DNA of 64,000 nt from Cinnamomum chago. Taxonomy: Eukaryota > Streptophyta > Magnoliopsida > Laurales > Lauraceae. Below the pieces are notes generated by a model that saw only the letters and a list, made by a program, of their open reading frames with translations, did no database searches and was not told the origin of the DNA. Below are positions 5,786 to 53,458 of the stretch, piece after piece. Where the stretch lies: contig CP142451.1 of NCBI GenBank assembly GCA_038049695.1, positions 70,076,001 through 70,140,000 of the forward strand. Direction: 5' to 3'. A program made the position numbers and the translations under genes. Every line of letters begins with the position of its first letter. Positions within the stretch are counted from its first letter, which is position 1.

Positions 5786-5914
5786 CGGTCGACCGAGACA
5801 CAGGTCTCGGTCGACCGAGACAACTGCAGGCAAAATTTGCCTGGGAGCACCAACGGTCAGAAATATGACCGTTGTGTGTTCTCGGTCGACCGAGGCCTGT
5901 TTGCCGGTCGACCG
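5786..5914. promoter_or_regulatory. Two pairs of CGGTCGACCG palindromes upstream of TATA
   Basis: Perfect 10-bp palindromes at 5786-5795, 5808-5817, 5883-5892 and 5905-5914. Centres within each pair are exactly 22 bp apart, and the pairs are 97 bp apart. The second copy extends to an 18-bp perfect palindrome (5804-5821). The same array recurs at 11230-11358 and, with small changes, at 26016-26145. Lying 27-155 bp upstream of the TATA box, it is a candidate enhancer or repressor site. Confidence 0.7.
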
Positions 5915-5940
5915 AGAACTAGCCGTTGGGCATTTTTGGC

Positions 5941-5948
5941 TATAAATA
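5941..5948 (+). promoter_or_regulatory. TATA box of the Copia-like 5' LTR
   Basis: TATAAATA in the context GGCTATAAATATGAG, directly after the palindrome array. It is repeated at the equivalent place in the truncated 3' LTR (11385) and, in weaker form (GCTATAAAAATGAG), in the solo LTR near 26171. Transcription would begin about 30 bp downstream, giving a U3 of roughly 575 bp. Confidence 0.65.
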
Positions 5949-7603
5949 TGAGTTCTTTCCCTTGCCAAAAGTTGGGATTTTTAAGCCCCTCCTTGAGAGG
6001 ATTTGAGGCATATCAAAAGGGAAAAGAACCAAGGGATGAAGGGGATGATTAGGAAAGCTAAAGCTTGGATTAATGAAGTTAAACCACCAAGTAGGCTCTT
6101 CCTTCCTTAATCATATGTCTTCATGCTTTTGTTTTATTTTTGGTAAATCATTTCTAGCATGTTAAACTATGTTTGTGTTGTGTCCTTAACATATTTTATG
6201 TTTTGAGTTGATTTATTGTTTTGGATACAACACCATATGATTCAATCCAAGTAGTACTTAACTTTGGTAAATCTAAGTAGATCATGTTAATGAAAGAACC
6301 TTTGAAATCATATGTAACATGATCCATATACTTGGTTGAATCTTTGGTTGTTGTTTTCCATCATAAGAACATCTCTTTCAAAACTAACTTATGTTTTGGA
6401 TTCAACTTCTTTACAAATCATATGTTTTCATGTTTTGTTTTATCATTGGTAAATCTTAGTAACATGTTAACCTATGATGTGTTGTATCCTTAGCATGTGT
6501 TATATTTTGAATAGATCTATTGTTTTGGATACATCACCATTGATTCATCAAAGTAGTACTTTATCTTTGGTAAATCTAAGTAGATCATGTTAATGAAATA
6601 CGTAACATGATTCATATACTTTGTTGAATCTTTGGGTGTTGTTTTCCATCATAAGAAAATCTCTTTCAAATGTATCTTATGTTTTGGATTCAACATCATT
6701 ACAAATCATATGTGTATTATTGTTTTAAAGTTTCACAACTTGCATTACTTTGATAGGTAAATCATTTTCAAGTTGTATTTATAATTACATATGATTTGTC
6801 CCCTAATTTCAATCAAATCTATTTATATGTTTTGAGCTTCTTTGGTGATTTGATTGACATCCCTATGCATCACATGTTTAGAGCTAATCCATTTCATACA
6901 ACTTGTGTAACTTTGATATCATTAACAAGTTGTTACTTTTAACATGTGATTGCATTATATCCTCAATCATAAATGTTTTATGAGCCAAAACTTTCAAAAG
7001 CCTTAGGCATACAATTATGAACTTTCATTTTCAAAATGATTGAGGACCACACACACACACTTCATGTACTTTCATCTTTGCATCCATAGTGTGAGTGTGT
7101 AGTTGTTATTCTCTTCCATATCCGCCTATTTTAGAGGCAAATGTAATGAGCTAAAATGAATCTCCATCTAGTGTATTAAAGACACAACTTAGTGAGATAA
7201 CCAACCTATGGTTGATGAGGTTATTGCTTAGCCTATAAAAGCATAATGTATAGGTTGATGTTAAGCCTTGAAAAACATCAATGTAAGGTTATTGCTTAGC
7301 CTTGGAAAGCATATTGTAAAGGTTATTGCTTAGCCTATTGAAAAGCATAAATAGTGGAAATCCGGTGGGGTGTTGGTTCACAAGCCGGTAGTGGATGTAG
7401 GCATTGAGGCCGAACCACTATAAATCCTTGTGTGATGGTGATTGCTTTGTGGTGATTCTTTTGTTAGCTTCCGCATATTGTTTGATAATCATCACATGTG
7501 ACTAGTTTGTTTTAAAGAAGTTAAAATTGTTTAAAATTGGTCATAATTGAAGCTCACCCTATTCACCCCCCCTCTAGGGTTCGGATCCCCATGGACTTAC
7601 AAG

Positions 7604-7615
7604 TGGTATCAGAGC
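7604..7615 (+). other. Primer binding site, tRNA-iMet type
   Basis: TGGTATCAGAGC, two bases after the LTR end, complements the 3' end of plant initiator tRNA-Met. A second exact copy in the same context (AAGTGGTATCAGAGC) lies at 7839-7850, so the leader carries two PBS-like sites. Confidence 0.9.
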
Positions 7616-10600
7616 TGTAGAGCCTCGGAAAAACTCCTTGTGAGTCGTGATCACTCGCATCCACGGAAACTCTCGCTTGAAATAGCGGATAAATAGAGAC
7701 TCTCCGTTCGTGGCAGGCATGTGGGGGGGGGACTATCGTGCTCCATGTGTCTGGACTCTGATAGGTACCATTTGGTGATCCGTGTTAAGAGGATGTGGGT
7801 CCTCAAGGGTTTTGAAGAAATTCAGACCCCTTAACAAGTGGTATCAGAGCGGGTTACTCCATTTTAGGGCTTAACAACCCGGAGTTGATCCTTGCTAGAT
7901 TTGAACCCTAGTGTTGTGTTTTTAATGCATATCTTTATGTTGATTTCCACTATGTTTGAAAATGTTTTTCCCTAGCCTCTTTGCACCACTCTAAGACTTT
8001 TCTAAGTTATATCTTCTAGAGTTGGTGAGTCCTCAAAGTGATCTCTCAAGGACACATTTTCAAGACCTTAGGTTTATTTTCAAAGGTAGACTATTTGAGT
8101 AACCTTAAGGCCTTGATACCCCTAGACCAACCTATGCTTTTTAGTTATATCTTTTTGTTGGTCATGTTACATTTGCATTTTGTTTCTTTAAAGTCACATC
8201 TTTTAAAATGCAATGTTTCTTTGTGATCATTTGATTTTGTCTTCATGAACTTTTATAGTTATATCTCATGGTTTTCAAAATCCTTGATTGCAATTTTTTC
8301 ATGATGGATTTGCATGTTGTTAATATAGTAATATCTCTTGTTGTGCATATCTATTCATGATCAATTGATTGTGATTACAAATGCTTTCATAGCTAGTTTT
8401 TCATGATCAATTGATGTTGGAAAATCATTTGATGATTGTCATAGTTATATCCTTTTTGAATCAAATGATTTGAAGCAACCTTAGTTTTCCATTGATTTAC
8501 AAGTTATATCTTTTGATATGGAAAATTTGTAAGTGTCTATTGTTTTTACAAATTGAAAACTTTACAATAGTACACTTCTTGTTTTTCAAAATCACTTGCT
8601 CTTAATTCTATAAATGATTCTTTGTTGGAATTTCATACATTGAAGTGATTTGAAAAACTTTGGAAAATGTTCTAAGCTTTATTAGTTATATTTATAGAAG
8701 CATTTTCCTTGAATTTATTTCCTTGTGCCTAATTATGATTGTATCTTTTGAAAGGAAATAATTTTTACAAACAATTTGCATCTTTGCTCTTTGAGTTACA
8801 TTCTTTATGCAAATTGATTTTGTTGTCTTACAGTGCTTGGTTGGATATGGTTTCATTGATTTGCATGTTTGTGCCTAACTTGGTATATATTCTCATTAAT
8901 GCATTTTGATGATTGGTTATGTGCTTTATAGTAAAATCTTGTATTTGAGCTTTCTAAGTGCATTTGTGATTTAATGTACTAAGTTCATTTGGTATAGACC
9001 TCATATCCTTTTTCATTGCATTGTAAGCTTAGTACATTTGCTAAGAGTGGAAATGTTACATGATAGATTGATACCTTTAACTTCATACCTTCTTGTGCTT
9101 AAATAGTTATATTCTTTTTGATGAATGGTATGAGTTAGATCTTGAGTGTTGATTAATCCTCTCTATGCAAATGGCAAATTGTTCTATGTATGGTAGTGAT
9201 ATTTATTATATTTGTTGAAACCATACTAGAACTCAAATCCATCCTCTATGCCTTATAGTCATATCTTTTTGGATGGTTATGATGTTGACTCATGTAGATT
9301 CTCTTGGTATCATCCTTATACATGTTTCAACTTCATAAGTAGTGTTCTTAATCATATGAAACTCTTTGAAAACCATTTCTCATATTTCTATATGTTTGAT
9401 GGATATCTTAGATGTTGAATTCATATGATTTTGACACTTTGGAAATTGCATGCATTACCAAGTAATATTCTTTGCATTGCAATTTACCTTGTTCATCACT
9501 ATGCTCAATAGTTATATCTTTAAAAGTGATGAATATGCATTTATGATGCTTGATGGAATTTTTGTCACATTCTTGCTCTTTATCATGTTATCAAATTCAA
9601 TTGGTTTCAATTGGTATAATGTTTGATTGTTTTGATTTCTTGTGAATGTGATAAATCTTGTGTGCATTGGATTGAACTTGATAAGTAATATGACTATTCC
9701 ATGTCACACACCATTAGCATCATAATGTTCATGTTGCCACCTCTCTTGCTCTTATAGGTATATCTCATGACCACCATGTTTATGTGTTCATAATATTGGT
9801 TGGTTATTAGTTGAGGTTGGCTTCATGCTTGAATTTCATTTCACTCATTCTTGCACGTTAATAGTCATATTTATTGTTTGAATGAAATGATTTCAAAACC
9901 TTACATAGCATATGATTTTCATAAGTTATATTGATTGATGCTATGTTTGAGTAAACCCCATTGCATCATGGATAGCTCTAATTTGGATTCTTCCCAATAG
10001 TCATACTTTTAAATCCATTTTAGAGTGATTAATTTAATAGTCATATCCTTTAATCTCAATTGGTATTCTTTGTTTTTCCAATTGATATCCATGATTGCTT
10101 TTCCCATTGACCTAGCTCTCTTTTGGTAATTTGATCATATTGAGCCTTATAGTTATATGAATCTAATCCTTTCCTTGAAGTTGACCCTCATTTGGTTAAA
10201 CCATCTTCTTCTTGAACCAAATAGTTAAATCTTTGTCAAGAGTTTGACAAAAGGAGAGAATGGATTGAGGGGGAGTGTAAACCTTCATAGGAAGTATTAG
10301 TTTTGATCAAATTGACCCTTGGATTGCCCTTGAGCCCTTAGAGATTACCACCACTCATGATAGCATGTTATGTATTTCATTTTCGATTTCATTTGTTAAC
10401 AGGTGCTTCTAAAGGTATTTTCCTTGTTTCATGTGTGTAGGTACCTTTGCAATTTAATGGCAAAGGGGGAGAAATTATGCAAGTTCTCAAAAGGGTGAAG
10501 AGAATGTCCAAGCTTCCTAAGGGGAGGTTTTTGTATGATCTTCTACAAGGGGAGAGAATACATACCTTGCCAAAGGGAGAAAGAGGCATGGTCAAAGGGG

Positions 10601-10822
10601 GAGAGCAAATAGAAGAAACAAAGCTTGGAAGCTAAAGAAGATGCTTGGCTAAAGAAGAGAAAGCTTGAAGAATGATCAAGCACCAAGCATCATGAAGATT
10701 GAAGCCCAAGAGCCCAAGCTATGAGAAGAAGCATCCAAGAAGATTTCAAGCCTTGTCCAGCTGAGGGGGAGCTGAAGACTAAGTGTGCTTATTCAGTGGT
10801 GAGTGTGTTTGCCATCAAATTG
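7616..10822 (+). other. Non-coding internal region with recurrent AGTTATATCT motif
   Basis: There is no retroviral protein reading frame. Instead, variants of TAGTTATATCTT or TAGTCATATCTT recur about sixteen times between roughly 8005 and 10155 (for example near 8141, 8256, 8441, 8502, 8690, 9106, 9258, 9510, 9862 and 10150), mostly 60-250 bp apart in AT-rich filler. The last 600 bp (10240-10830) is purine-rich, with repeated AAGGGGGAG blocks. This is the layout of a large retrotransposon derivative that depends on enzymes from elsewhere. Confidence 0.7.
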
Positions 10823-10835
10823 CAAAGGGGGAGAT
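10823..10835 (+). other. Polypurine tract
   Basis: CAAAGGGGGAGAT immediately before TGTTAGGG of the 3' LTR. This is the expected start site for plus-strand DNA synthesis. Similar tracts are typical of SIRE/Angela-type Copia elements. Confidence 0.8.
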
Positions 10836-11507
10836 TGTTAGGGTTTTTGTAGATTGCAATTTGATGGATGCATAATCATTCAAGCATCATTTGATTTACA
10901 CACTTATGCATTGTTTTATATAAACTTGAAATCTTGATTTATTCATGCATTGGTTTTAAGATTAGTAAAAGTTTCTATTTATGCATGATTTGTTTTTAAA
11001 ACTTGGATGCATTAGTTTTTGGAAAAAGTTTTAGAAATCAAGCTAGCCTATGGTTTTAAAGTTTTCATAAACTTTTTAGGCTTTTTATGTTCATGTTTTA
11101 AAAACCATTAGAATCTTTAAAACATGTTTTTCAAGCTTGATTTAGTGGCCAAAAGGTCCCCCAAAGAAATATCTTCAAAATATGCAAAATTGGAATTTTT
11201 GCAAAAAGGGGGTGTCTCGGCAGTGTCGCCGGTCGACCGAGACACAGGTCTCGGTCGACCGAGACAACTGCAGGCAAAATTTGCCTGGGAGCACCAACGG
11301 TCAGAAATATGACCGTTGTGTGTTCTCGGTCGACCGAGGCCTGTTTGCCGGTCGACCGAGAACTAGCCGTTGGGCATTTTTGGCTATAAATATGAGTTCT
11401 TTCCCTTGCCAAAAGTTGGGATTTTTAAGCCCCTCCTTGAGAGGATTTGAGGCATATCAAAAGGGAAAAGAACCAAGGGATGAAGGGGATGATTAGGAAA
11501 GCTAAAG
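10836..11507 (+). repeat. Truncated 3' LTR of the Copia-like element
   Basis: Identical to 5392-6063 apart from one base, including the palindrome array and TATA box. It stops at GCTAAAG, where the 5' copy continues for another 1.5 kb. The DNA after it (GCTGAAGCGATG...) is the antisense integrase remnant of G1. Confidence 0.9.
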
Positions 11508-11815
11508 CTGAAGCGATGACCTTTGCTTGATGGGGGAGAGATAGGACCTATGATGTCCATACCCCAGGCTTTGAAAGGCCATGAGATCGCTGTAGGATGT
11601 AACCATTCTGGAGGTATGTGGACATAATCTCCATATATTTTGGCATTGTTGGCAGCGTTTAGCAAATTGCATTGCATCAGCTACCATGGTAGGCCAATAA
11701 TAACCTAACAATTTTATCTGATCGTAGAGCTTAGGACCAGCCTGATAAGCTCCATAAAGACCAGCATGTACTTCTTTGAGAGTTTCCTCGACCTCTTGTT
11801 GTGACAAGCAGTGTA
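11508..11815 (-). pseudogene. Integrase N-terminal remnant of G1
   Basis: The minus strand encodes the zinc-binding region (EVHAGLYGAYQAG ... CQQCQ) and the start of the catalytic core (WGMDIIGPISPPSSKGHRF). The second His of the HHCC finger is Tyr. A frameshift lies between the finger and the core. The core stops after its first catalytic Asp at the Copia insertion site, and the other two acidic residues are absent anywhere nearby. The integrase is therefore dead and truncated. Immediately beyond, on the other strand, the additional ORF ends. Confidence 0.85.
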
Positions 11816-11896
11816 GAAGTACTTCGTTGAAGGATTTTCTTTAAAACATTTTTTAAGGAATATCCAAATGAAAGTTTGGGGTTCGTCTTTCAATGT

Positions 11897-21140: not shown

Positions 21141-24100
21141 TGTAAGACCCCGACCCGAGTGAACCCGATTAGTGTTAATTAAGTTGCGTGTTAGTTCTAA
21201 GCTTGATTAGTGATTTTGGCTAAGTTGGGTTTGGAATAGCTTTTGAAATAGTTTTGGGGAATTTTGATTGCTTTGTGATTAGTGAGACTCTTTGGGGGTT
21301 CCCTCTTTATGACCTTGCATGCGCTTGAGGATTTATCGAAGGTTTTTGTATTCATTGTTTTAATCCCGTTTCAATTGTATTGTTAATCCCTACAACTTTT
21401 ATGTTGATCCCGTGCCCTTTCGAGATCCCGAAACCCGATTTCATAGCCTCGAGGGCAAAACAGTCATTGCACACAAAATCTGTACCCAAAACTTGATATT
21501 CCCGAAACCCGTGAAACATATACTTTTTGGAAACTAGATATTTCGACGATCACTTTTCTCTTCTTCGTCGAATTCATTAGAAGCCCCAAAAGCCATGATT
21601 TCAACCCAATTAGATTATTAGTAGTGGAGCCCACTCCCCACTTGTTTATAAGGAAGCCCTTCCCCTTTCATTTCCCTTTTTCCAGCACAAGAGAGAAAAC
21701 CTAGGGTTTCCATTGCCTTCCTTCTTGCTCTTGCCTTCCATCACTAAATCCGCCACCAACCTTGCACAAATTGAGAGGTGGAGATCATCATCTTCTTCCT
21801 CATCACCATAGCTCTCTATTGATACCATTGCTAGAGAAAACCCTCCATTACAAGACTTTCTTTGAGCTCACCTTGTCCATTAGAGGACCTTACAAGTAAG
21901 TAATCCTTCCCATCTTCTAGAATTGTATTCTTCTAGCCCTAGAGAAGCTTCACCTTCATTATTGTAAGGTTCCCTTTTCTATTTCATTGTTTGACCATTT
22001 TAGGGTTTTATTTTGGGATTTTGTTCATAGCTTGGATTCTTTGCTTGGAGAGTAGTAGAGCTTGAACTCATTGACTAGAAGACCCAAGGCAAGTGGATGA
22101 TTGATTTTTATAAGTTTTCAATGATTTTAGTATTTTCCACTCATGCCTATTTATTGCTTTGTTTTGAAATAAATGTTCATGATAGAGTATTAATGGTGCA
22201 TTTATATCAAAGAGATGTGTTGGTTCATAGCATTTAATTCCTCTTGCTTTGTCCCAAATATATCTCATGTGAAATGGTTTCCTTCTTTCTTTCCTTGTAT
22301 TAAATGTGATATTGATGGAGGAGAATGGGATGGATGTGGTGAAAGATTTGATGTTATTTGAATGAAGTTTTAGACTCCTCATTTGATGTATGAAAGTGGC
22401 TAAAAAGAGGTTGTAGAAGGAAGAGATAGAGAGGAGCTGAACTGGTCCGTAATCAGTTTCTGGATAGTTCGCTCTAGCGAACATGACACTTCGCTCGAGC
22501 GAAGTGTCCAGAAAAGTTTCGGAGCATTCCAGTAGCTTGGTCGCTCGAGCGTACCCCTTGTTCGCTCGAGCGGACATCCCAGAATTTGTTCAAGAGAGTT
22601 GTTCGTTCGAACGCACTAAAAACTTTGCTTGACCCAATGAGTTCGCTCGACCGACCTATACTGCGCTCGAGTGAACCCACCCAGACAGCCATTCCAGAGA
22701 GCTCCTCACTCGAGCGAACTCTCCGGTTCGCTCAAGCGATGAGCTTTGTTGGTCAAAGGCTATGTTGGGACAATGATGAACTATTTAAACGATTGGGACT
22801 ATTCGTTGGGAACCCCTCTATGTCAAGGAGATTTACTATAATGCATGAGACCATTTGAGAAAGAAACCATATCACGAAGATGTCATTTAAAGTTTTGAAA
22901 ATTCCAAAGTGTATAAGGAGCCCGGAATGTCCCAAAACTCAAAGAGTACCAAATTGTTATTAGATTGACATACGGGGTCCCTATCCACCTTAAATAAATC
23001 TTGAACCCAATACTTCACCCGAAATTCCAATTGTTTACTGTACTCTATCGATCCCGAGGTTTATACTACATGCCTTGTTTTCCCGAAAGTATTGAATTAC
23101 ACTTGAAATAGTTACTTGTCTTGAAGTGCATTGCACTGCAAGAAATGACAATGTGCCCTTGAGCACCCCCGTCCTGCCCGTTTATTTATTTGTACTTGAT
23201 TACTTGCATATATCTCGATTGTTACTTGACCTATGAGTCGGCACCACTAAGCTTGGATAACCCTGTTGGTCTGATCCACCGACTTGGAGATCCCCCTCTT
23301 GTCCCACCAGCTGCAGTTTGGACCCCGCTACCTGGTTATTACCGTGGTCTTGTCCCGATGCCGCAGATTGCTACTGTGGTTCCCGATGCCCGGCTCGCTA
23401 CCGTGGTCATGTATAGTATATGTATATGTATTTATAAGATCCATTGTTTCTCCTCACCTCGAGTGACTGAGATCAGTGCCTAGTTATTGCTCTCTCACTT
23501 TAGTGATAGAGGACTTAGCTTCGTGTGGTTGTCATCTTGCTTGTTTCTCCGTTTCCTTGGTTACCTGTACATGTTTTATAATGCATACTTGTATTTGAAT
23601 AAATGTTTTATCTCGTCTATAGAAAATGTTATTTAAACAGGTTTAACTGCTTTTGAAGGTAAATTCATGTGCTATCATATTGTCATTGTATGTTATCCAT
23701 TTGCCAAACCGTCGTGTTTGACCCACTTTTGGTACTGAGGTCCCGTTGTTGGTTATCCCGAGGAGGAGCATGAGGAGGCGGTCGGAGAACCGCAACAGTT
23801 AGTTGAGTGGCGTGCTGATGACGTCATTTAGACGTTTGGTTGCTATGAGAGACTTATTACTTTGGGAAACTGTTTAACCATTATTTGGATTGGTATTTTG
23901 TTTATATTGGCCTTTGTTGGCCTCTATTTCTGGGAATGTAATTAAATGATCTTTTATATAAACTTTAACTTACTTTTAGGTAACATGCTAATAACCATTG
24001 CTCATTCTGATACGGTACTATACTTGTGTTATTTATCTTTATGATTTGAGATGGATTGAATATTTGATTTGCTACACGCTTCCGCACTTAATAGAAATGT

Positions 24101-25496: not shown

Positions 25497-27372
25497 TGTT
25501 AGGAATTTTGTATTTGCAATTTGATGGATGCATTTTCACTTTAGCATCATTTGAATTTACACTCTTGCATTGTTTTAGAAAACCTTGAAATCTGGTTTTA
25601 TACATGCATTACTTTTAAGATTTGTAAAAGTATTGTTTTATGCATGTTTTGTTTCTAAACTTGGATGCATTGATTTTAGAATCCAAACTCTTTTGAAATC
25701 CTAATTCTTTGTGCATTACTTTTGTGAAATCATATTGAGAATTTAGGTTTGTGTCTTGCATACTTTCATCACTTTCAGAATCATCTTTGTATGCATTTGT
25801 TTTTTAAAAGAGTTTTAGAAATCAAGCTAGCCTTTGGTTTTAAAGTTTTGAATCATTTTAGGCTTTGTGTTGTTTCATGTTTTTAAACCCCTTAGAATGA
25901 TTTAAAACATGTATTCAAGCTTGGTTTAGTGGCCCAAAAATCCTCCCAAAGAAATACCTTCAAATGTGCAAGAATTGGAATTTTTGTCAAAAGGGGGGTG
26001 GCCCGGCAGTGTCGACGGTCGACCGACGCAAAGGTCTCGGTCGACCGGGAACACTGCTGGCAGAAAATGCCCTGGCGCCTCCAACGGTCAAAAATATGAC
26101 CGTTGTGTGTTGTCGGTCGACCGAGACCTGTTTGCAGGTCGACCGAGGACTAGCAGTTGGGCACTTTTTGCTATAAAAATGAGTTCTTTCCTTTGTCAAT
26201 GGTTGGAGATTTTGAAGACTCTTTTGAGGAGCTTTGAGACAAGACAAAGGGGATGAACTAAGAGAGACCAAAGAGTCATTTCTTGAGCTAAAGCTTGGAT
26301 TAATGAAGTTAAATCTCTAAGTAAGCTCTACCTCTCTTAATCATAGTTTACATGCTTTGTTTAAGTTATTGGTAAATGATTTTGAGCATGATAACTATGA
26401 TGTGATGAATCCATTCTTCTCTCAATCTTTGATCTAATTAAGATTGGATGCTTCACTTTGTTTTCATCCAAGTAGTTTTTAAAACTTTCTTAATCATGCT
26501 TAGTCTAAATCTTTGATTCCTTTTATATAGCATGATTCTTTTTCTTGGTTGAAACATTACTTGTTGTTTTCATTCATTTAAACATTAGTAAAATTCATTT
26601 GGTTTTGAAAACAACATTGCACATGCATCACATGTTCTAAGTTAGTCATTTTCATACAACTTGTGAGTCTTTGATTTTCATGTCATTAACAAGTTGATTT
26701 TCATACATGTGATTTGCATTAGACTTCAATCAAATCTTTCATGAGCTTTAAACTTTGAAATACTTTAAGCATATATTTTATTGAGCTTTCTTTTTAAACT
26801 TGATTGAAGCTATCACACACACACATCATGAGCATATACATTTGCATTCATTTAGTGTTTGTGTGAGTTTGTTATTCACTTTCATATCCGCCTATTTTAG
26901 AGGCAAATACATTGTGCTTAAATTGTATCTCTTAGAGTGATCTTTTGTGAAGACACTTTCTTAGAGAAATCTTTATTGTGTAAAGGTTATTGCTTAGCCT
27001 AAGAAAAGCATTTTGTAAAGGTTATTGCTTAGCCTAGAAAAGCACATTGAGAGGTTGTTGTTTAGCCTAGAAAAACAACATTGTAAGGGTTATTGCTTAG
27101 CCTAGTAAAAAGCATAAATAGTGGAAATCCGGTGGGGTGATTGGATCACAAGCTGGTAGTGGACGTAGGCATTGAGGCCGAACCACTATAAACCTTTGTG
27201 TTGTGGTGTATGCTTGTGGTGATTCATTTATTAGCTTCCGCATATTGTTTGATTAATCATCACATGTGACTAGTTTATGTTAAGATATTAAAATTGGTTT
27301 AAATTGGTCACAATTGTAGCTCACCCTATTCACCCCCCCCCCCCTCTAGGGTTAGGATCCCAAGGACTTTCA
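25497..27372 (+). mobile_element. Solo LTR of the Copia-like family
   Basis: Begins TGTTAGGAATTTTG and ends GACTTTCA, with TSD GTTTG on both sides (25492-25496, 27373-27377). It aligns along its length with the LTR at 5392-7601, including the four palindromes (26016, 26038, 26114, 26136), the AACGGTCA hairpin and the TATA box. It has diverged clearly from that LTR, so it is an older insertion. A run of about 12 C lies near 27328-27343. Confidence 0.92.
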
Positions 27373-29801: not shown

Positions 29802-32800
29802 TGTCGCGACCCCGGAACGAGTTCCCCGGGCCCGCGACGTTGAAATTGTTAAGATAGTGTTTATGCCTATTGTTTTCCCACAGGTTTCCGCGGTGAGGAT
29901 TCCCAAAGACACGCAGAATCTGACTCACACGACCAAATATGCGGAAGCGTGTAGCAAGACACATCAAGATGAGCACCCACAAAATATTTAAGTGCCCTAA
30001 CAAATAATCACAAGGCATAGTATCAAAGAAAGAAGTTAACATGGCATTCCCATTAATATTCAAGCTATGAGACTAAATCAAAAGTACTTTAAATTTGGTT
30101 ACAACCCATAAGAGGCCAACAGAGGCCAATACACTTCTCAAAATAATCAAAATGAACCCCCAACAAATTATGACGAGACTCAAGAACCCGCCCGACATCT
30201 AGATGACATCGTCGGGCTGCCACTCTCTCACAGGGGTTGGCTCACAAGCCTCCTCCTAATGCTCCTCCTCAAAAGTAACGTCTCCTGCACCTGGGCACCA
30301 ACAAACAAGGGTCAAACACGACGGTTTGGCAGGTAATCAATTTAGGAGCAAGCATGAAGCAATGACGTTTAAGAAAACATATAAGCAAATCCTTGATTTG
30401 AGATACTATAATGACTGAGGTACATTTGCAGAAATATTTCATCGAACTGAGATACTAAAACAAACTAGCATGAGTACATAATATATCATGAATAGTTATC
30501 ATCCACAAAGAGCCCATCCTTTCTCTATCATTTATATAATGAAAAGAGCAAGCACGCACGACAAGCACGATATACATAATATAAGCACGACACGATTTCC
30601 CACAAAGACGGGAATTCCTGCCGTGGAACCGGACACGCACGATGTGTAATAAATACACGACCAGTCTGCAGACAGTCCATATGTTTAAGGACCCCCGGAC
30701 AGTGGATCAAACTGAAAGGGCAGTCCAAGCTCAGTGGTGTTACTTAATTCATGAATGCACAAAACACGTGAAATACTATCAAAACATGTCGAGATAAAAA
30801 GGGGGAAATCACTTATCAAAACACGATGAACACGACTAGCAAGGGCATAATTGATATGCATAACACACTTAGGAAGTGATCCCCTTTTTCTTGAAACACA
30901 TCTTCAAAATGAGCTTGTACTTAAACTTCAAAACGAGTACACGATGATATTCATTATATCGAAACCAAAGTATGAATACAAAGCCTATCAAGCTCATGCA
31001 AGAACCTTTGGTTGATCGTTGTGCAGTCGAAGCCCAGATGTTGGAATTAAAACAGAATTAGTGCCCCAGAAGTTCAAGGACATCTCGGGTTTCGAGTGCA
31101 TAACATCAGGCTAAAGGCCACTTAACATGTTCTAGTTTTCGTTCTGGCAAAAACTCTTCAAAACAGGAAATCTGTCAAATTCGGTCACCTCGAGGTCAGG
31201 TGTCGGCTAGCCGAACTGAGGTCTAGCAACTAGCCGCCAGCTGACCGACAGGCTAACCGCTGAAAATCCAGGTCCAACGCAGCCCTCTGAAAAAGGAACC
31301 GTACTTACTGCGGTTAGCTTACGGTTAGCCGAACTGAGACTTGGCGATTAGCCGTAAGCTGACCGTAGGGCTGACCGCGGGAAATCCAGTCTGAAATGTA
31401 GCTCTCGGGAAAAGGAACTGACATCGCGCGGTTGGCCAGCGGTTAGCCGACATGGGGTATGGCAGTTAGCCGCTTGCTGACCGTCAAGCTGACCGTAAAT
31501 CACTGTCGAAATGTCAGCTTCTGGAAAGGGAACCGCCGAGCTCGATCAGCTCGCGGTTAACCGAAATGGGGATTTCGGTTAGCCGCCAGCCGACCGACGG
31601 CTGACCGAACTGCACGGGAAATGCGGTCCAGTGCAGATTTTTGCACATTTCTTCTTCCCTTCTTCTTATTTGTCATTCCACTTGCACTCCCTGAGCCTAC
31701 ATGCTCTCCAAGGGACAAAACACATAATTTTCCCAATTTCAAACATTCAATCAAAGGAAAACATGATCACGAAGCTTATAACATATTTATATGCAAAATT
31801 TCTAAAACAACAATGAAGCTTACAAAACACATGCACAATAGTCCTATAGAGATTACTTGCCTTAACCAATGCTAACAATCCTCTCCAAGCACTTCACTCA
31901 AAAGCTAAGCCAACACTATAAGAAAACCCACACAACTTACTCAAAAATGGAACCAAAGAACCCATTTTAACAAAAGGGTTTGTAAACATGAAAAACATGA
32001 TCTTAGGGAACCAAAATAACTCCATGGAAGATATGAGTGGAAGCTCTTACCTAGAGAAGGTCAAACAAGAGAGGAGGAAGAAAATGTAGAGCTTGTTCTA
32101 CAAGAAGCTCCAAGAAACTTGTATCAATGGAGAGCTTGCAAGGAGAAGAAGAAGATGGTAATTTTGGAATCCTTTTTGGAGCTCTCTAGCTAAAGCATGC
32201 AAGAGGAAAGAAGAGGAAGAGAGAAAGGTTTTCCTTGCCCTAGGTTCAGAAATTGCAGAGATTTGGGTTTTAGAATGAAAAGAGTAGAGAGGGGAAAGAG
32301 ATGAGTTAACTTAAGACACTTGCAAGTAAGGCCCAAATGTCTTGAATTTAAAATGACCAAAACATGATCTTGTGGGCCTCGGATGACTTCGACGAAGAAG
32401 GATAAAACGATCGTCGAAATATCTAGTTTCCAAAAAGTATATTTTTGATATGGTTTTGAGATCTCGAAAATTGTGTCCAGATTTGTGCATAAAAGACAAT
32501 TTTACCCTCTTTGGGCCAAAACATGGGTTTTTGGGCTTCAAACATGAATGAGCTTAAAACGAAAGTTGTAACACATAGAAAAATCATTCAAATGAAATCA
32601 AAATCACAATCACACGGAAACCGATACGATCTTTCCAAGCTTACACGTGCACTCAGGCCTTCCTGAGTGTGTCTGACTAGTACTACACGTTCTCGAAAAT
32701 CCCCAAAGCTATGTCCAAGACTAAAACTCCTTACTTCTAACCCAACAATCACTAACCCCACTTATGACTAAACACATACTAATCGCACACTAATCGACTT

Positions 32801-32821
32801 GGTCTGGGTCGGGGTCTAACA
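29802..32821 (-). mobile_element. Solo LTR 'B' (3.0 kb)
   Basis: In plus orientation it begins TGTCGCGACCCCGG and ends GGGTCGGGGTCTAACA, so on its own strand it starts TGTTAGACCCCGACCC. TSD GGTGG lies on both sides (29797-29801, 32822-32826). It has no coding region. It is a sister of LTR D (41483-44477) and related to A, C and E. It holds four tandem ~115-bp units with paired palindromes at 31180-31640. Confidence 0.92.
31180..31640 (-). repeat. Four ~115-bp hairpin-forming tandem units in LTR B
   Basis: Palindrome pairs centred at 31208.5/31231.5, 31326.5/31349.5, 31444.5/31467.5 and 31558.5/31580.5, that is 23, 23, 23 and 22 bp apart, with pair-to-pair periods of 118, 118 and 114. Cores are variants of CGGTTAGCCG or CGGCTAGCCG. 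In each unit the flanks extend the pairing to roughly 17-21-bp arms around a 13-15-base loop. Confidence 0.75.
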
Positions 32822-32833: not shown

Positions 32834-35800
32834 TGTAAGACCATGACCCCCAAATTGCTTGTATTAATTATGTGTGTTTATTAGTTTCTCTAAGTGTTTT
32901 AGAAGTGGACCAAATTAATTTGAGGATTATAACATGTTTTGGATATCTTTGGAAAGTTTGAAGGACATTTTAGTCAAGTCCGATGACTTTAGGGGCCTAA
33001 GCCTAGAATTTTGGAAAGTTCAGGGGGGTTATTTGCAACTTCTTAAAATTCATGTTTTGGCTCCATTTGATAGATAAAATCATCCCCTAAAACTTTTATG
33101 CTTTGTCGGTACCCATTTGAACCCCCAAAAACCCATTTTCCAACCCTAGGGCCAAAACAGTATTTTCACTAGAAATATGAGCCCAAATTTTGACATTCCA
33201 AAACCAAGTCAAAAGTATACTTTTTGGAAACTAAATTTAATTTCATGAACTTTTGTCTCTTGCGGCATGTCGATCCGATGTCCCGGTCTCTAGTTATTCA
33301 ACTCCGTAGATGGTTAAGTGGTGAGCCCCACTCTCACCCCTTTATATTGCCACATTCATTCCTTCTCTCCCATTTCTCTTGTTCTTCACTCTAGCCATGA
33401 GAGCAGCCCCCCCAGAAGCCATCTTTCTTCTCCTTGTTCTCTCTTTCTCCTCTAATTCAGTCCGAAGCTCAGTCAAATCGAAAACGAACATCGCCGCCTT
33501 CTTCCTCCTTCATAGCGTCCGAAAGAACCCATTTTCGTTGGATTCGAGCCATGGCAGCCCCTTGCTTGAAGCTTTTCTTTGTCGTCAGCCAACGTTGAGG
33601 TAAGGGATCGCTTCCATCTTCTAGTATGTGCTAGGGCAGGCCGTAGGGGTTTCCCATTCCGACATGCAAGCATTGATTCCATCTCTTTCATGGATTTCAA
33701 TTTTCTAAGGTTCTAAGGTATCATTTTGGGGGATTTTGTTAATTAGGTGTTTGTAGTCCATTTGATGTATTTAAGGCTTGATTTGGATTTGCTAGAGGGC
33801 AAGCAAGTGAATAATTTCAAAATTTTGTTGTATTTGCTTGTCCCACATTGATTTCATGTTCTACTCTTTGAATTTCCTACTTTTGTACTTATGCTTTAGC
33901 TTATAATCTTGTTAATTAATGTTGCAATTAGAGGCTTGATTTAGTATGAAAATGGTTGCCAAATGATCCCTCAAGAGTGGTGCAAGGATCTTCAAAATTG
34001 GCTAATGAAAATGGAGGAGAAACTCAAAGAATTTGGCCAAGTATTTGGCGGTTCGGACATGGACCTCATATTGGTCGAACATGGGGTTCTTGGAGCCCAT
34101 GTCCAACTAGCAGGGGTCCAAGTCCAACCATGGTCAGACACGGCCCCATGTGGGCTTGTTTGAACCTAGTTTCTCCGCCTTCCTTCCTCATCTTCCTCGG
34201 TTGGTTCTTGGGACTTGTGAACCACATTTAGGGCCATCATTTGCCCCCTCTAATGGACCAAGTAGAGGAAACAAATCCCAATTCTATCAGCTAAAATCCA
34301 TTACTTAGACTTAGGGTTTTGGACTTTCACCTGGACTCAGTTGGACTTGATCTTCGGGCTACGAATTTGAGTAGTTTGAGCCATAAAACACCATTGGAAT
34401 TGTCTGGAGGAATGTGAGGGGCATTAATGAATCGAATGTAGGCTTATCACAGAGTACCAAGGTATCACATAATTGACATCCGAATCTTAAATACGCATAA
34501 GAGCATTTCGTCAATGTCTTAGCATGTCAATGGCAGTTCTCGGACTTGAATTGGACTTACATAAGGTATTTGGTACTTGTTTGGTCAATCAACCCAATTT
34601 CCATATTATTTGTACTTGTCTAATCGCATGCATGGTATATGCTCATCTGTCTTACACCTTAGCTACCCATCATGCATACCCAATTCTGTACCCGAGCTAA
34701 GAATGGATCGTTAGGTCTGGAGAGTCATGCTTAGGAGAGAATGTGCATTCATTGCCATTTTGATCCCCCAGGGTGACATGATCCTAGGTTTAGGGTCTCA
34801 TGAGGATAACATAGTTGCCATGATGGATGCCCGTCCGTCCTCATGCACCGGATCCGATATCTACTCTTTCTATCCCTCTAAGACACCCCATTCCCTGCCG
34901 GAATGCTATCCGATGATTTTCAGACCCTAGGCTTGATTTCAAAACTATTGTTAAAATTAATCAAAATGGTATACTCGTTTGCCTGAAAATACCCAATTCA
35001 TAGCCTTTGTTTTGCCAGTTTTGGATTCCCGGGGTTCTTCACAATTTGTCTAGTTGGATTTGATGGATTTGTCATGTCAAAGAGTAGTTTCCTCTACCCT
35101 AACTACCGCTTCTGAAGTAGTGCCCAGTTAGTCTGCTTGTCTTGGGTTCTCGAGTCAGGCACCACTAGGCTTCGACCCTTGCTTGGTTAGGGCAACCTTA
35201 TCTAGGTTTGTATTATATTTGTATTTTTCCGCTGTTGTTGATTTCTTGTTTGCTCTCCGATCACGCCGCACGCAACCGTGGGTAGCTGCCACCCTAGCCA
35301 CACCGCACACGGTCGAGACTATGCCTTGCTTGTTCTTAAATTGCACTTGGCTCTGTCACTGTCACGTCGCACGCAACTGTGATGGAGAAATAGCATATGT
35401 GGATTGCCTCTTAGTTTGCTAGATTGGATAGTATACATGTACATACACCTTGATTCTTTTACATGATTTTCTGTACTTATTTATTCAATACTTCCCCAGT
35501 TGTATTATCCTTCATATATTGTAATTCATCATCCTGTTTTATATTTTGTTTTGCTGCAAACATATTGTATTTTGTTATTAATCACCTGCCATGTCGTCGT
35601 GCCTGATATGATGCACCCTTGGTGTTCTAGGTAGTAGGACTTTGCTTGAGCTGAAGCGCAAAGAGTTGACTATGGTGCCGTGGGTATCTGGGGTATGTTT
35701 TGCCAACGACGTCATTTAGACTTCGAGCTTGGCACCAGAGTTATGTCACACTTGGGGCAGTATCCGTACTTGGTTATTTTCTTGTATTGGCTTTTATTAG

Positions 35801-36136
35801 CCTATTTTTTGGGGTTGTAATTAATACACCTTTATAATTTGTAACTTAAACATTTGGGAAATAAATATCATGTTACTATCAGCTCTATATTAACTTCATG
35901 TATGGTTGGTTCCAGTCTGATGATGAGCCCCTTGATGACAGCTTTATTGTTGATCGGTTGAGTGCGACACGGGATCCGATGGCCATGGATTCCAGGTCAC
36001 AATGCCACGTAAGCTTCTATGAAAATATTCATTCTTTGTGTTGAAATTTGGATCTCCTCACGCACGCGGATCCTGGTTATTCCAACTTGCGCCTCGAGAT
36101 TAGGTTAATATAGAGATCCGATTTTGAGTCGTGATA
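32834..36136 (+). repeat. 3' LTR 'C' (about 3.3 kb) of a large-LTR element
   Basis: Starts TGTAAGACCATGACC after the polypurine tract. It resembles LTR A along its length: TATA-like TTTATATTG near 33343, CTTGAGG...AAGGG leader, an ACGTCATTTAGAC block near 35709. The end is placed at AGTCGTGATA (36136), the counterpart of TCGCGACA with the final CA decayed to TA. No TSD is expected here because the partner LTR is outside the window. A weak palindrome pair, GTTCGGAC and GGTCGAAC, lies at 34051 and 34073. Confidence 0.7.
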
Positions 36137-36369: not shown

Positions 36370-39300
36370 AAGAATGGTGTTACGACCGTTACCATAGCTT
36401 GCAATTGTGATCCGTCGATTTTGAGAGTAGTCGAAATTCTCATTTTCAATGTACGCGATCTCTCTCCATAGGGGATCCAAATTCCACATCTGACAATGAT
36501 TTAATAATAAAATCACAAAAAAAAAAGCATGACAAAAATTCAAGTTCAAAGGTTAAAAACATGCATGAGAAACCAAGCTTAACTCAAAGAAAATGCATCC
36601 AATTAAATTGCAACACACAAAATCCCTAACACGCATGGCTTGCCTAGATTTATGGGACTCAAATTCCTAAATTACAAAAACAACACTAACTTTTAGAAAA
36701 ATTACAAAAAGGTCCACATATTCCAAACACCATATGACCATTTGGGCTATACTATTCCACGTGTGGGAGCCCATTGTGGGTCCACACTAAATATTGCTTA
36801 ATTATTGTATTATTTAGTGTATTTTCTAAATTTTTCTGCCCAAATTTCTATGAATCAAGTTTTTAAAAGATTTGTTCGCCAACAATTTCTTTATCTAAAA
36901 ATAACTAATGCAAATTTAAGAGGTCAACAAAGGCCAATACATTCCCAAAGTAACAAAATATGAAACCCTTAGCAAAATGAAACAAGTCTCAAGATCCCGC
37001 CTGACGTCTAGATGGCATTGTCGGGCTGCCACTATCGAGCTGGGAGTGGCTCAACAGCCTCCTCCTGGCGCTCCTCCTCATAGGCATCGGCGCCTACACC
37101 TGAGCACCAAAACAAAAGGATCAGACACGACGGTCTGGCAGGTGATCGATTTAGGCATGAGTATTAAAACAATTAGAGTTTGAAAGAAACAATATAAAAA
37201 TAATTTGCTGGATTTAAAACAAGTGCGTAGCTAAGATACATTTCGAAAACATAAAAGTTCGTGAATGATATACAAAACGAAACTCAGATGGGTACATATA
37301 ATATCATGATTAGTAAATCCAAGTAGAACTCATCCTTCCTCCATCATACAAGATGATAAGAGTAAGCAAAGACAAAGCAAGGCGAGACGAAACAAAGCAA
37401 AATCCCCCGCCAAACAAGGTAGACGGGGAGCCGGCCGCGGAACCGGAACAAAGAAAAGATGTGTATATAACTACACGACTAATCGGCAGATAGACCATAT
37501 GTTTAAGGACGCCCGGACAAGTGGATCAGACTAAAGGGGCAGTCCAAGCTCAGTGGTATTCATCTAAAATCATGAATGCACAAAACAAAGCGATACATAT
37601 ATAAGACAGATTGAAAATGGGGGAAAATCAGTCAACGAAACAAGACAAAGCAAAGCTAAATGGAAATAACATAAGCTATAGCAAATCAGAGCATAAGAAG
37701 TGATCCCCCCCCCCCCCCCCCGCCTATTGGTTCTTAATACAATTCAAAGCAAAGCTAATACTTGCAAATCAAGGCATGTGTAAAACGATATACGTCGTGT
37801 CGAAACTGAGATTTGAAAACAAGCTTATCAAGTATATGTTAAGGCCCCTCATTTGACCCTCGTGTATTTGAAACCCAAATGTCAGAATTAAAAGTGAACT
37901 GGTGCTCCCGAAGCTAGAAGAAATTTCATATTCCAAGTGCACAATGTCAAGTTAAAGTCCCTTAACATATTCTGATTTTCATCCCTGTAGAAATCCCTCT
38001 AAAACAGTCCATTTTGTAAATCCAGTCACCTGTCGGTTAGTCGAGGTGGGTGTGTCGGCTAGCCGACAATTGACCGATAGTTGACTAACCCTATACAGGC
38101 AAGTACTTATTTCTTTTCTTTGCTGTACAAAACCTGCAATTTCCCTAAGCCAACATGCTCTCGAAGGGTTCATTTCCAACACAACTCTAATTCTAATCAA
38201 ATTAGATTCCCAAACTCCTCCATTCTCCAAAATCAAAGATCATCAACCAACCCATACAAAGCTAGTAACATTGAACAAAAAAGAATTAAACTTAGCTAAA
38301 TATTTCAAAGTAACACAAGAACATATGCATGCAAGATAAAAACAGAATTCAAACCATTCAACCATGTTGATATCAATTCAATTTCAAAACTAGGATAAGA
38401 AATTAAACCATTTATAACCAAAGTAATATCCAAACATAGCATGCACTAGCAAAGCTAAAGAGATCACTTACCTTAGCCCAAAGTAACAATCAAAACCTCC
38501 TCAAAGATCCTACCCAAGAGCTGAGCCAAGAAACTACAAAAGCCCCAAATAAAACCACTCAAAACCAACAATTTTTGACAACCAAAACCCCATTTCGAAA
38601 ATGGATTTGCATGTTGGAAAAACAGATTTTTTAGGAGCTAAAAGGGCTCCATTGAAGAGATGGGCTAAAGCTCTTACCTAGAGATGTCCAAACGAGAAGC
38701 AAGGAAGAAGATGGAGTAGTTGTCCAACTGGAAATTCCAAGAAAATTGCAGCAATGGGAAGCTTGAAAGGAGAGGAAGAAGAAGATGTGCTCAGATTTCA
38801 AATCCAAGTCCAATAGCTATATGACAAGCAAGGTGGAGAAAATGAAGGGGGAAGAAGCTTCCTCTCAGCTCTGGTTTTTGAAAAGGGTTGTAGGGATTCT
38901 GATATGAATGTGAGGGAGGGAGAAGGAGAGTTTAAGTGAGTGGATTGTGGGCCCATCTAGTTTAAAACTTGCAATGGTTAAAACATGTTCTTGCGGGCCC
39001 TGGATGAAATTGACGAAGAAGGATAAAATGATCCGTGAAAAATCTAGTTTCCAAAAGTATAAATTTCACATGGTTTTGATATTTCGAAATTCATGTCCAT
39101 ATTTGAGTGTGAAAAGTCAAATTTACCCTTTTGGGCCAAAACACAGGTTTTTGGGCTTCAAACATAGACGAGCTGGATGCGATAGTTGTAGATAATAACA
39201 AAATCATTCAAAAGCAATCAAAATCACAACTAAAAATAAAAAATCCAGAATCATCCTCACATGCTTACATGTGCACTTAAGGCATCCCTGAGCGTGTCTG

Positions 39301-39445
39301 ACTCAAACCAAATGCTCTCAAAATTCCCAAAGCTATATCCAGGACTAAGTCTAAATATATTCTAACCCAACGATCACTAAACCCACTTAAGTCTAAGCAC
39401 ACACTTAATAACACTAATCGGGCTAATCTAGGTCGGGGTCTAACA
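36370..39445 (-). repeat. Related large LTR 'E', reverse orientation
   Basis: The right end, GGTCGGGGTCTAACA (39445), is the same terminus as B and D. The body matches them in order (AGCCTCCTCCTGGCGCTCC near 37061, CAGTCCAAGCTCAGTGG near 37540). The left edge is inferred at TGTTACGACC (about 36372) and no TSD to match CGTTC (39446-39450) was found. A C run of about 17 occurs at 37705-37721. One palindrome pair lies at 38034-38065. Confidence 0.65.
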
Positions 39446-40693: not shown

Positions 40694-40698
40694 AGACT

Positions 40699-41208: not shown

Positions 41209-41463
41209 TTTTGCCCTCAATGCCTCGCGTAAAAGGAAACTTTTAAAGCGAGACATTTTGAATATCAGATTTTTTTTCATGCCGAGCATTAGTTGTTTTC
41301 CCAAACACTATCCATCTCCGCGTTCGGTGTTCCACAGAAGAGTCCTTCCGGCGGTTCTTTCCCTCTTTGAATTTTACAGAAGAGTTCCTGTAGTTCAAGA
41401 CTCTTCTCCTTTGCTCTCTTGGCTTAGGGTTCCTTCTCCTTTGAAAACCCTAGAGCAAGAGAT

Positions 41464-41472
41464 TATAAATAG
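41464..41472 (+). promoter_or_regulatory. TATA box for the antisense additional ORF of G2
   Basis: TATAAATAG in the plus orientation, preceded by CTAGAGCAAGAGAT. Without solo LTR D it would lie about 160 bp before the ATG at 44622, a normal promoter distance. D is inserted 11 bp downstream of this box, within the region where transcription should start. Confidence 0.55.
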
Positions 41473-41482
41473 GGAGGGCTTT

Positions 41483-44477
41483 TGTCGCGACCCCGAAACG
41501 GGACCCCCGGGCCCGCGACATTGAGATTGTATACATTGAATTTTTGGAGATATACTTTCCCATAGGTTCCCGCGGTGAGGGTTCCCAAAGACACGCGGAA
41601 TCTGACTCACACGATCAAGTATGTGGAAGCGTGTAGCAAAACATATCAAAATGAGCACCAATAAACTATTTAAGTGCCATAGCAAATAGTAACAAGACAT
41701 AGTATCAAAGAAAGAAGCTAACATGGCATTCCCAACATAGTTCAAGTTTAAGTTTAAGTTTAATTACAACCCATAAGAGGCCAACAGAGGCCAATACACT
41801 TCTCTAAAAATAGTTAAAGGAAACCCCAACAAAATGGTGACGAGACTCAAGAACCCGCCCGACGTCTAGATGACATTGTCGGGCTGCCACTCTCTCACAG
41901 GGGTTGGCTCACAAGCCTCCTCCTGACGCTCCTCCTCAAAGGTAACGTCTCATGCACCTGGGCACCAACAAACAAGGGTCAAACACGACGGTTTGGCAGG
42001 TAATCAATTTAGGAGCAAGCATGAAGCAATGACGTTTAAGAAAACATATAAGCAAATCCTTGATTTGAAATACTATAATGACTGAGGTACATTTGCAGAA
42101 ATATTTCATCGAACTGAGATACTAAAACAAACTAGCATGAGTACATAATATATCATGAATAGTTATCATCCACAAAGAGCCCATCCTTTCTCTATCATTT
42201 ATATAATGAAAAGAGCAAGCACGCACGACAAGCACGATATATATAATATAAGCACGACACGATTTCCCACAAAGACGGGATTTCCGGCCGCGAAACCGGA
42301 CACGCACGATGTGTAATAAATACACGACCAGTCTGGAGACAGTCCACATGTTTAAGGACCCCCGGACAGTGGATCAAACTGAAAGGGCAGTCCAAGCTCA
42401 GTGGTGTTACTTAATTCATGAATGCACAAAACACGCGAAATACTATCAAAACATGTCGAGATAAAAAGGGGGAAATCACTTATCAAAACACGATGAACAC
42501 GACTAGCAAGGGCATAATTGATATGCATAACACACTTAAGAAGTGATCCCCTTTTTCTTGAAACACATCTTCAAAACGAGCTGGTACTTAAACTTCAAAA
42601 CGAGTACACGATGATATTCATTATATCGAAACTAAAGTACGGATACAAAGCCTATCAAGCTCATGCAAGGACCTTTGGTTGATCGTTGTGCAGCCGAAGC
42701 CCAGATGTTGGAATTAAAACAGAATTGGTGCCCCAGAAGTTCAAGGACATCTCGTGTTTCGAGTGCGTAATATCAAGCTAAAGGCCACTTAACATGTTCT
42801 AGTTTTCATTCTTGCAAAAACTCTTCAAAACAGGAAATTTGTCAATTTCGGTCACCTCGCGGTCAGGTGTCGGCTAGCCGAACTAGGGTCTGGCGGCTAG
42901 CCGCCAGCTGACCGACAGGCTGACCGCTGGAAATCCAGGTCCAACACAGCCCTCTGAAAAAGGAACCGAACTGACTGCGGTTAGCTTACGGTTAGCCGAA
43001 CTGGGACTTGGCAGTTAGCCGTAAGCTGACCGTAGGGTTGACCGCTGGAAATCCAGTCTGAAATATAGCTCTCGGGAAAAGAAACCGACAACACGCGGTT
43101 GGCCAGCGGTTAGCCGACATGGGGTATGGCGGCTAGCCGCTTGCTAACCGTCCAGCTGACCGAGACCCACTTTCGAAATGTCAGCTTATGGAAAAGGAAC
43201 TGCCGAGCTCAGTCAGCTCGCGGTTAACCGAAATGAGGATTTCGGCTAGCCGCCAGCCGACCGACGGCTGACCGAACTGCACGGGAGATGCAGTCCAGTT
43301 CAGATTTTTACATTTCCTTCTTCCCTTCTTCTTGTTTCTCATTCCACTTGCACTCCCTGAGCCTACATGCTCTCCAAGGGACAAAACACACATTTTTCCC
43401 AATTTCAAACATTCAATCAAAGGAAACATGATCATGAAGCTTATAAACATATTTATATACAAATTTCTAAAACAACAATGAAGCTTAAAATACACATGCA
43501 CAATGGTCCTATAGAGATTACTTGCCTTGACCAATGCTAACAATCCTTCTCAAGCACTTCACTCAAGCTATTCCAATGCTACAAGGAAACCCAAGAAAAC
43601 CACACAAACTCACTCAAAATGGAAACAAAGAACCCATTTTAACAAAAGGGTTTGAAAAATGAAAAACATGATCTTTAAGGAACTAAAAGACTTTATGAAA
43701 TGCATGGGTTGAAGCTCTTACCTAGAGAAGGTCAGACAAGAGAGGAGGAAGAAAATGAAGAGCTTGTCCCACAAGAAACTCCAAGAAATTTGTACCAATA
43801 GAAAGTTTGCAAGAAGATGAAGAAGATGATGGTCTTGGAATTCTATTTGGAGATCTCTAGCTAGATCATGCAAGGTGAGGAAGATGGAAAGGAAAGAGGG
43901 GTTTTCAACCCTAGGTTAAGAAAGTTGCAGAGATTTGGTCAAGTGAATGAAAAGAGAGGGAGATGGGGCTTAAGTGAAGACAATGAGCCCCAATTAACAT
44001 GAACCTTGAAATGACCAAAACACGATCTTGTGGACCTCGGATGACTTCGACGAAGAAGGATAAAACGATCCTCGAAATATCTAGTTTCTAAAAAGTATAT
44101 TTTTGACATGATTTTAAGATCCCGAAAATTGTGTCCAGATTTGTGCATAAAAGACAATTTTACCCTTTTTGGGCCAAAACTTGGGTTTTTGGGCTTCAAA
44201 CATGAATGGGCTTAAGGCGAAAGTTGTAACACATAGAAAAATCATTCAAATGAAATCAAAATCACAATCACACGGAAACCGATACGATCTTCCCAAACTT
44301 ACACGTGCACTCGGGCCTTTCCGAGTGTGTCTAACTAATATTAAACGTTCTCAAAATTCTCAAAGCTATGTCCAAGACTAAACTAGTTACTTCTAACCCA
44401 ACAACAACTAAACCCACTTAGGACTAAACACATACTAATCGCACACTAATTGACTTGGTCTGGGTCGGGGTCTAACA
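41483..44477 (-). mobile_element. Solo LTR 'D' (3.0 kb) inside G2
   Basis: TGTCGCGACCCCGAAACGGG...GGTCTAACA, TSD GCTTT at 41478-41482 and 44478-44482. It is close to LTR B throughout, with the same four tandem units; palindrome pairs are at 42875.5/42898.5, 42993.5/43016.5, 43111.5/43134.5 and 43225.5/43247.5. It is younger than G2, which it interrupts. Confidence 0.93.
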
Positions 44478-48757: not shown

Positions 48758-48810
48758 CTGGCTTGGTTCGAACTGGTGCCCAAGGAATGCTGGTTCGCCT
48801 GACGGGGTTT

Positions 48811-53457: not shown

Positions 53458-53458
53458 T

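Follow-up and report, generated by a model that had tools for sequence, protein, structure and literature searches.

The plant Copia elements Tnt1 and Tto1 carry tandem cis-regulatory boxes, short repeated activating boxes located in U3, and we know of no CGG-CCG palindromes among them. Closer to the arrays discussed here are the Sireviruses, in whose long terminal repeats (LTRs) family-specific CGG-CCG palindromic boxes, the repeated motifs (RM), were described by Bousios et al. (2010, BMC Genomics 11:89; PMC2829016). According to the parts of that paper considered here, the RM centre differs by element, the clusters begin 200-400 bp into the LTR and are associated with CpG islands, and a TATA box follows the island at a mean distance of 37 bp. 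At least eight RM copies are expected per element, the published 3' LTRs hold 3-14 (more than four in 11 of 13), and the inverted repeat at the polypurine tract averages 28 bp with 89% identity. The same parts list CGGTCGACCG as the box of a Vitis Sirevirus (Table 3) and make no mention of a fixed spacing of ~22 bp. For maize Sireviruses a small-RNA excess at the palindrome clusters is reported (Bousios 2016, as cited in the relevant passages of PMC10760457 and PMC5311732). The present analysis concerns palindrome arrays in a 64-kb stretch of Cinnamomum chago DNA (contig CP142451.1, positions 70,076,001 to 70,140,000), hereafter the window, which appears to be plant-type DNA full of nested LTR elements. 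The LTRs in question are those of the Copia-like element S, the solo LTR F and five further LTRs, A to E; all coordinates are those of the window.

A first-pass annotation had reported paired palindromes at a fixed spacing in several unrelated LTR families and knew of no described system of this form. The palindromes are present where it placed them, and arrays whose core changes while the spacing stays roughly constant do exist. The families, however, are not unrelated: B and D are one family, A to E form one homologous lineage, and S and F belong to another. Nor is the form new, since the Sirevirus boxes in the cited parts of PMC2829016 include the identical CGGTCGACCG. The box pattern is thus real but mostly explained, and less surprising than at first look, because one set of boxes is of a published control type and all remaining sets come from just one further lineage. 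With slightly better than even confidence, we propose that both the Sirevirus-type LTRs S and F and the lineage A to E use their boxes as paired sites for dimeric host factors that drive transcription.

Box arrays of the Sirevirus-type LTRs S and F

To judge from its non-coding signals, S is a Sirevirus-type (SIRE/Maximus) Copia element, and its four CGGTCGACCG boxes are the known repeated-motif array. It combines CGG-CCG boxes, a CpG-rich array with a TATA box, polypurine tracts followed by AT/TG, an inverted repeat, and a poly-C stretch with a primer-binding site (Table 1). The first box lies at position 395 of the 2210-bp LTR. CpG observed/expected ratios are 1.25 in the array versus 0.19 in the rest of the LTR of S, and 1.32 versus 0.17 in F. 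The TATA box starts 25 bp past the last box in both LTRs of S and in F alike. The poly-C stretch of S is a C7 at LTR position 2175, and TGGTATCAGAGCT at 7604, with one mismatch to the usual pattern, is presumably the primer-binding site. All five AGGGGGAG tracts lie within 570 bp upstream of the 3' LTR, and a single further copy was found elsewhere in the window (52951). Each LTR of S holds four RM copies, i.e. eight over both, which should be read against published totals that count the linker and the 3' LTR.

No intact Copia gag-pol of the SIRE lineage is located between the LTRs of S. The region 7602-10834 contains no open reading frame (ORF) of at least 100 amino acids and 11 ORFs of 56-80 amino acids, which were not compared with any library, and decayed pol remnants were not searched for. 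Consequently, the lineage assignment of S is based on the non-coding signals. A direct repeat of ~312-335 bp (84%) was also observed in the 5' LTR of S, downstream of the TATA box (6109-6442 and 6416-6727).

The solo LTR F, of a related Sirevirus-type family, allows the conservation of the boxes to be compared. Between S and F, 1 of 40 box positions is changed. The remainder of the LTR differs at 380 of 1552 positions (24.5%; P = 1.8e-4), and the non-box part of the array at 24 of 135 (P = 0.004); the P values assume independent sites, and the S-F rate omits 483 gap columns. The in-pair spacing is unchanged, and the sole alignment gap of the 175-bp array falls between the two pairs. For these analyses F was taken to 27396; its end at 27372 was fixed later by eye.

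The second LTR lineage and the spacing of its boxes

The alignments indicate that A to E are one second lineage of LTRs of about 3 kb. LTR A matches E, B, D and C over the first 461-962 bp and again near the 3' end (171-449 bp of A) with 59-65% identity, and identity in the matched flanks of A to E amounts to 59-71%. The solo LTRs B and D are 90% identical and belong to one family. The start TGTWAGACCCCGACC is common to A, B, D and E, and the end CGGGGTCGCGACA to A, B and D, E being incomplete. The 3' end of C was not found, and C was analysed to 35870 or 36130 in different scripts. Five independent families are ruled out by this homology. In the five-way alignment nearly the entire LTR middle, arrays included, shows ~29-45% identity between A, B/D and C. 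Between B/D and E identity drops to its lowest values (40-52%) at the array and just upstream, whereas most of the remaining windows reach 57-80%.

Since A to E are one lineage, their similar array position is most simply, and probably, inherited. The first-pass annotation had pointed to this shared position in all five, which holds for A, B, D and E but not for C, which is without boxes; it had also named descent of the arrays from one source as the refuting case, and this applies to most of its list. Judging by their LTR lengths, A to E are probably Ty3/gypsy. A, B and D are solo LTRs, and neither C nor E has a recognisable internal region. An exact search of viral contigs with one conserved A-E stretch gave 0 matches.

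The cores of the boxes are CGG-CCG in B, D and E and CGC-GCG in A. Exact copies of CGCTCGAGCG are found in A at 22492, 22542 and 22563, and CGGCTAGCCG or CGGTTAGCCG occurs at 31204-31576 (B), 38056 (E) and 42871-43243 (D). A unit of B or D consists of forward half-sites (steps of ~12 and 11 bp), two boxes 22-23 bp apart and reverse half-sites at ~11 bp. Boxes are present in A, B, D and E, but C contains neither a CGG box nor any CGG-N4-CCG in 32834-36130. In A, B, D and E no TATA box was found within 150 bp past the array on either strand, TATA-like sites lying upstream on both strands. A run of at least six C is likewise missing from these four LTRs, although the relevant end of E is not complete. 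The four were therefore not filed as Sireviruses; at most, their arrays would work like RM arrays.

In the window, 98 perfect 10-bp palindromes (TA run excluded) form eight pairs at 20-24 bp, six at 22 bp and one each at 21 and 23 bp. Dinucleotide shuffles (n = 100) gave a mean of 0.29 such pairs and a maximum of two, so the pairing at 20-23 bp is real. Four of the eight pairs stem from the two near-identical LTRs of the single element S. Tested per LTR (seven LTRs), the perfect pairs exceed the shuffles in A, D, S and F, the observed count being reached by 5, 0, 0 and 2 of 300 shuffles, respectively. They do not in B, C and E, where boxes are either imperfect or lacking.

Neighbour spacings of 20-23 bp are 22 and 22 in each LTR copy of S. 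With one mismatch allowed they are 22 and 22 in F; 22, 21, 20 and 22 in A (other gaps 50, 41, 40 and 43); 22, 22, 23, 23 and 23 in B, with a further 23 at two mismatches; 22, 22, 23, 23, 23 and 23 in D; and 22 in E. The earlier list of pairs is thus borne out near 22 bp for S/F, A and B/D/E, except that A has four pairs rather than five. Its inclusion of B and E holds at one mismatch, but B is without a perfect pair at 20-24 bp and E has one perfect box only. Some of these spacings have a box in common, and B and D accordingly contain runs of three boxes besides pairs. When homologous copies are merged, about three independent spacing values are left (S/F, A and B/D/E).

Two further features touch this lineage. 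GGTAAG-like and TTGGTGCYCAGG-like sites are aligned, by eye, in the diverged LTRs A to E at ~760 and ~2520 from the TGT start, and look as if a ~1.7-kb intron holding the palindrome array were spliced in the leader. A fragment at 36518-36631 (minus strand), ~290 bp from the broken end of E, matches roughly 120 bp from the beginning of the Sirevirus-type LTR with 67-68% identity.

Table 1. Coordinates of LTRs, box arrays and associated signals in the window
Feature	Position	Strand	Remarks
Element S, Copia-like	5392-11508	+	2210-bp 5' LTR; 3' LTR shortened
S 5' LTR, TG...CA, 2210 bp	5392..7601	+	repeat pair; followed by AG and primer-binding-site match at 7604
Array S, four CGGTCGACCG boxes	5786, 5808, 5883, 5905 (5786..5914)	+	spacing 22, 75, 22
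S TATA box CTATAAATA	5940..5948	+	25 bp beyond last box
S poly-C stretch CACCCCCCC	7564..7572	+	near LTR 3' end, place of Sirevirus poly-C 'integrase signal'
Five polypurine tracts AGGGGGAG	10268, 10464, 10596, 10764, 10826 (10268..10833)	+	last one followed by AT/TG (ATTG)
Inverted repeat around last polypurine tract	10812-10824 and 10855-10867	+	13-bp perfect arms
S 3' LTR	10836..11508	+	cut short at 11508; 99.7% identity to 5' LTR in 677-bp match
S 3' LTR boxes CGGTCGACCG	11230, 11252, 11327, 11349	+	TATA at 11384
LTR A, solo	21141..24251	+	target-site duplication GTTCT
Array A, CGCTCGAGCG-type boxes	22470, 22492, 22542, 22563, 22604, 22644, 22664, 22707, 22729 (22470..22738)	+	at most two mismatches
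F, solo LTR of related Sirevirus-type family	25497..27372	+	5-bp target-site duplication GTTTG, read by eye
F boxes CGGTCGACCG	26016, 26038, 26114	+	fourth box 26136 with one mismatch
F TATA CTATAAAAA	26171	+	25 bp past last box
F poly-C, C12	27333	+	
LTR B, solo	29802..32821	-	target-site duplication GGTGG
Array B, four units of CGGYYARCCG-type boxes and half-sites	31204..31607	-	pitch 112-118 bp
LTR C	32834..36130	+	kin of A by first 960 bp and a later stretch; end coordinate guessed
LTR E	36917..39445	-	homology ends at 36917, short of LTR end
E box pair	38056 and 38034	-	single pair, 38056 the one perfect box
LTR D, solo	41483..44477	-	target-site duplication GCTTT; same family as B
Array D, four units	42871..43274	-	pitch 112-118 bp
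D boxes	43265, 43243, 43221, 43153, 43130, 43107, 43012, 42989, 42917, 42905, 42894, 42871	-	at most one mismatch

Proposed function of the arrays and alternative explanations

We favour the arrays as transcription-factor binding clusters, with hairpins mainly a by-product. The boxes would bind dimeric host DNA-binding factors and thereby promote transcription of the element; they would be kept in pairs about two helix turns apart, and tandem duplication would enlarge the arrays and shift the core. In S and F the array forms a CpG-rich block immediately ahead of the TATA box. In A, B, D and E an analogous tandem-duplicated array is located in the poorly alignable LTR middle, and the core of A is not that of B/D/E. 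Each copy of a repeated palindrome is able to pair with all the others, so that RNA transcribed across the array can form strong hairpins, which the host may turn into small RNAs. Box identity, the Sirevirus context of S, the homology of A to E, the box conservation between S and F and strong predicted folding are documented here, whereas factor binding, transcription activation and small-RNA production by the arrays are inferred.

Several results weigh against this proposal. The boxes are not extra-conserved between B and D (7 of 90 positions changed, compared with 32 of 351 and with 237 of 2539; P ~0.4). The conserved stretch between S and F is broader than the boxes, with 82-91% identity in 100-column windows whose starts range from LTR position 325 to 473. 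Conservation is just as high at the LTR 3' end (89-92%), so the low rate of change is not special to the boxes alone. The lack of a TATA box after the array weakens a promoter-proximal role in A, B, D and E. Finally, phasing at 10.5 bp gave p values of 0.17 (S), 0.28 (A), 0.11 and 0.08 (D, two box sets) and 0.03 (B). Phasing at exactly 10.5 bp was rejected, since S, A and D show no significant signal. When the period is left free in the fit, every array proves periodic (p 0.002-0.019), though not with one common period (10.8, 10.3 and 11.65). Of the docking array on one DNA face that had been suggested at first, the docking array is retained as the favoured reading, but the placement on one face is weak.

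It is possible, though we lean away from it, that the spacing has no function and that local tandem duplication copies it along with the unit, its constancy being due to descent. The four units at 112-118 bp pitch in B and D point in this direction, as do the small number of independent spacing values left once A to E count as a single lineage and both LTRs of S together with F as another, the differing best-fit periods and the ordinary rate of change of the boxes between B and D. Three different cores nevertheless all stay within 20-23 bp, and between S and F the boxes and the in-pair spacing were kept despite the divergence elsewhere in the LTR.

Selection on structure is a doubtful alternative. 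Here a box pair would be a hairpin (10-bp stem, 10-13-nt loop) in RNA or a DNA cruciform, used in packaging, dimerisation, export or 3'-end protection, and the spacing would be the sum of box and loop. For each of the six arrays tested, folding is stronger than in shuffles, with sense-strand z values of -11.4 (S), -9.7 (F), -7.4 (A), -7.1 (D), -6.1 (B) and -3.0 (E) and antisense values of -3.7 to -12.1. The best-folding window of A, B, D, S and F is at or overlaps the respective array, and even C, without CGG boxes, has its best 180-nt window at the corresponding place (LTR position 1201, -71.5 kcal/mol). In addition, zero-shift pairing covers 19-25 of 36 positions (G-U counted) in the nine units from B, D and E. 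Strong folding, however, comes free with any repeated palindrome, and the best window of E lies elsewhere (position 2281), the one near its array being only third. Of the 71 pairs of the stem predicted for S, 54 are unchanged in F, six are kept by a one-sided change, none by a two-sided change, ten are broken and one falls in a gap. A long stem kept by compensating changes was therefore rejected. Unit-specific arm pairing in B/D/E was rejected as well, since the arms hardly prefer their own partner (mean -34.7 versus -33.4 kcal/mol with other units). A search of Rfam gave 0 matches at the gathering threshold.

We regard it as unlikely that the two LTR lineages built arrays independently, with different cores and the same 20-23-bp spacing, as the geometry is recognised by a single dimeric factor or silencing machine of the host; the second lineage would then have switched its core one or more times (CGGYYARCCG versus CGCTCGAGCG) without a change of place in the LTR. 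Very improbable is that recombination or template switching carried the array over from a Sirevirus LTR to the second lineage: CGG-CCG cores occur in S and in B/D/E, and both lineages lie close together here, including the Sirevirus-type fragment near E, but a BLAST comparison of the window with itself gave no array-flank similarity between the lineages, and the cores differ (CGGTCGACCG, CGGCTAGCCG and CGCTCGAGCG).

The similar array in a second, apparently non-Sirevirus lineage may be the new part. If that lineage is truly non-Sirevirus, boxes regarded as peculiar to Sireviruses within Copia would represent a more general solution at which plant LTRs arrive again and again, and the core change at one fixed place would allow transcription to be tested against silencing as the driver. 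Otherwise the window would be a clean example of the published system with measured spacing.

Surrounding elements and comparison with known systems

A Retand-like Ty3/gypsy element is located at 40698-53962 on the minus strand. It has an LTR-like repeat pair of 507 bp (96%) and reverse transcriptase and integrase domains; a gag match is just below the Pfam cut-off. It also contains an antisense ORF with Transposase_28 (PF04195) at 44975-45841, a feature described for Retand in the part of PMC11963269 considered. The solo LTR D lies between this ORF and the 3' LTR of the Retand-like element. Repetitive coding sequence of low complexity (GAPAA-like and ARERAT-like repeats) is present at 44600-45300 and 46740-47078, in and around the antisense ORFs.

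Paired CGGTCGACCG with 8-14 bp between the boxes was also observed in nine viral-contig stretches (L001-L009; 53-69% GC). These gave no BLAST match to the LTR or internal region of S or to LTR D and were taken as unrelated. In the open-licence PMC literature, LTR-terminus and box strings could be traced to PMC2829016 alone. Queries on palindromes with chromovirus or Tekay and on palindromic-motif spacing gave, by title or abstract start, nothing describing the A-E arrays. Palindromes as insertion targets were set aside, since PMC6911290, in the part considered, concerns insertion sites, a different matter.

The differences from the Sirevirus RM of PMC2829016, as far as the cited parts go, are that S has only four boxes per LTR, no intact gag-pol and shorter inverted-repeat arms of 13 bp, and that the A-E arrays are without the TATA and poly-C context. 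The palindrome clusters of Bousios 2016, as presented in the passages of PMC10760457 and PMC5311732 used here, belong to maize families and come with small-RNA data; they resemble the present arrays as LTR palindrome clusters with strong predicted structure and high variability, and their Copia motif is CACCGGACNNNGTCCGGTG. In comparison with the cited parts of PMC2829016, F has the boxes, CpG, TATA and poly-C, i.e. those features checked inside an LTR, and S shares the core, CGGTCGACCG itself, the start position, CpG, TATA, repeated polypurine tracts, AT/TG, the inverted repeat and poly-C.

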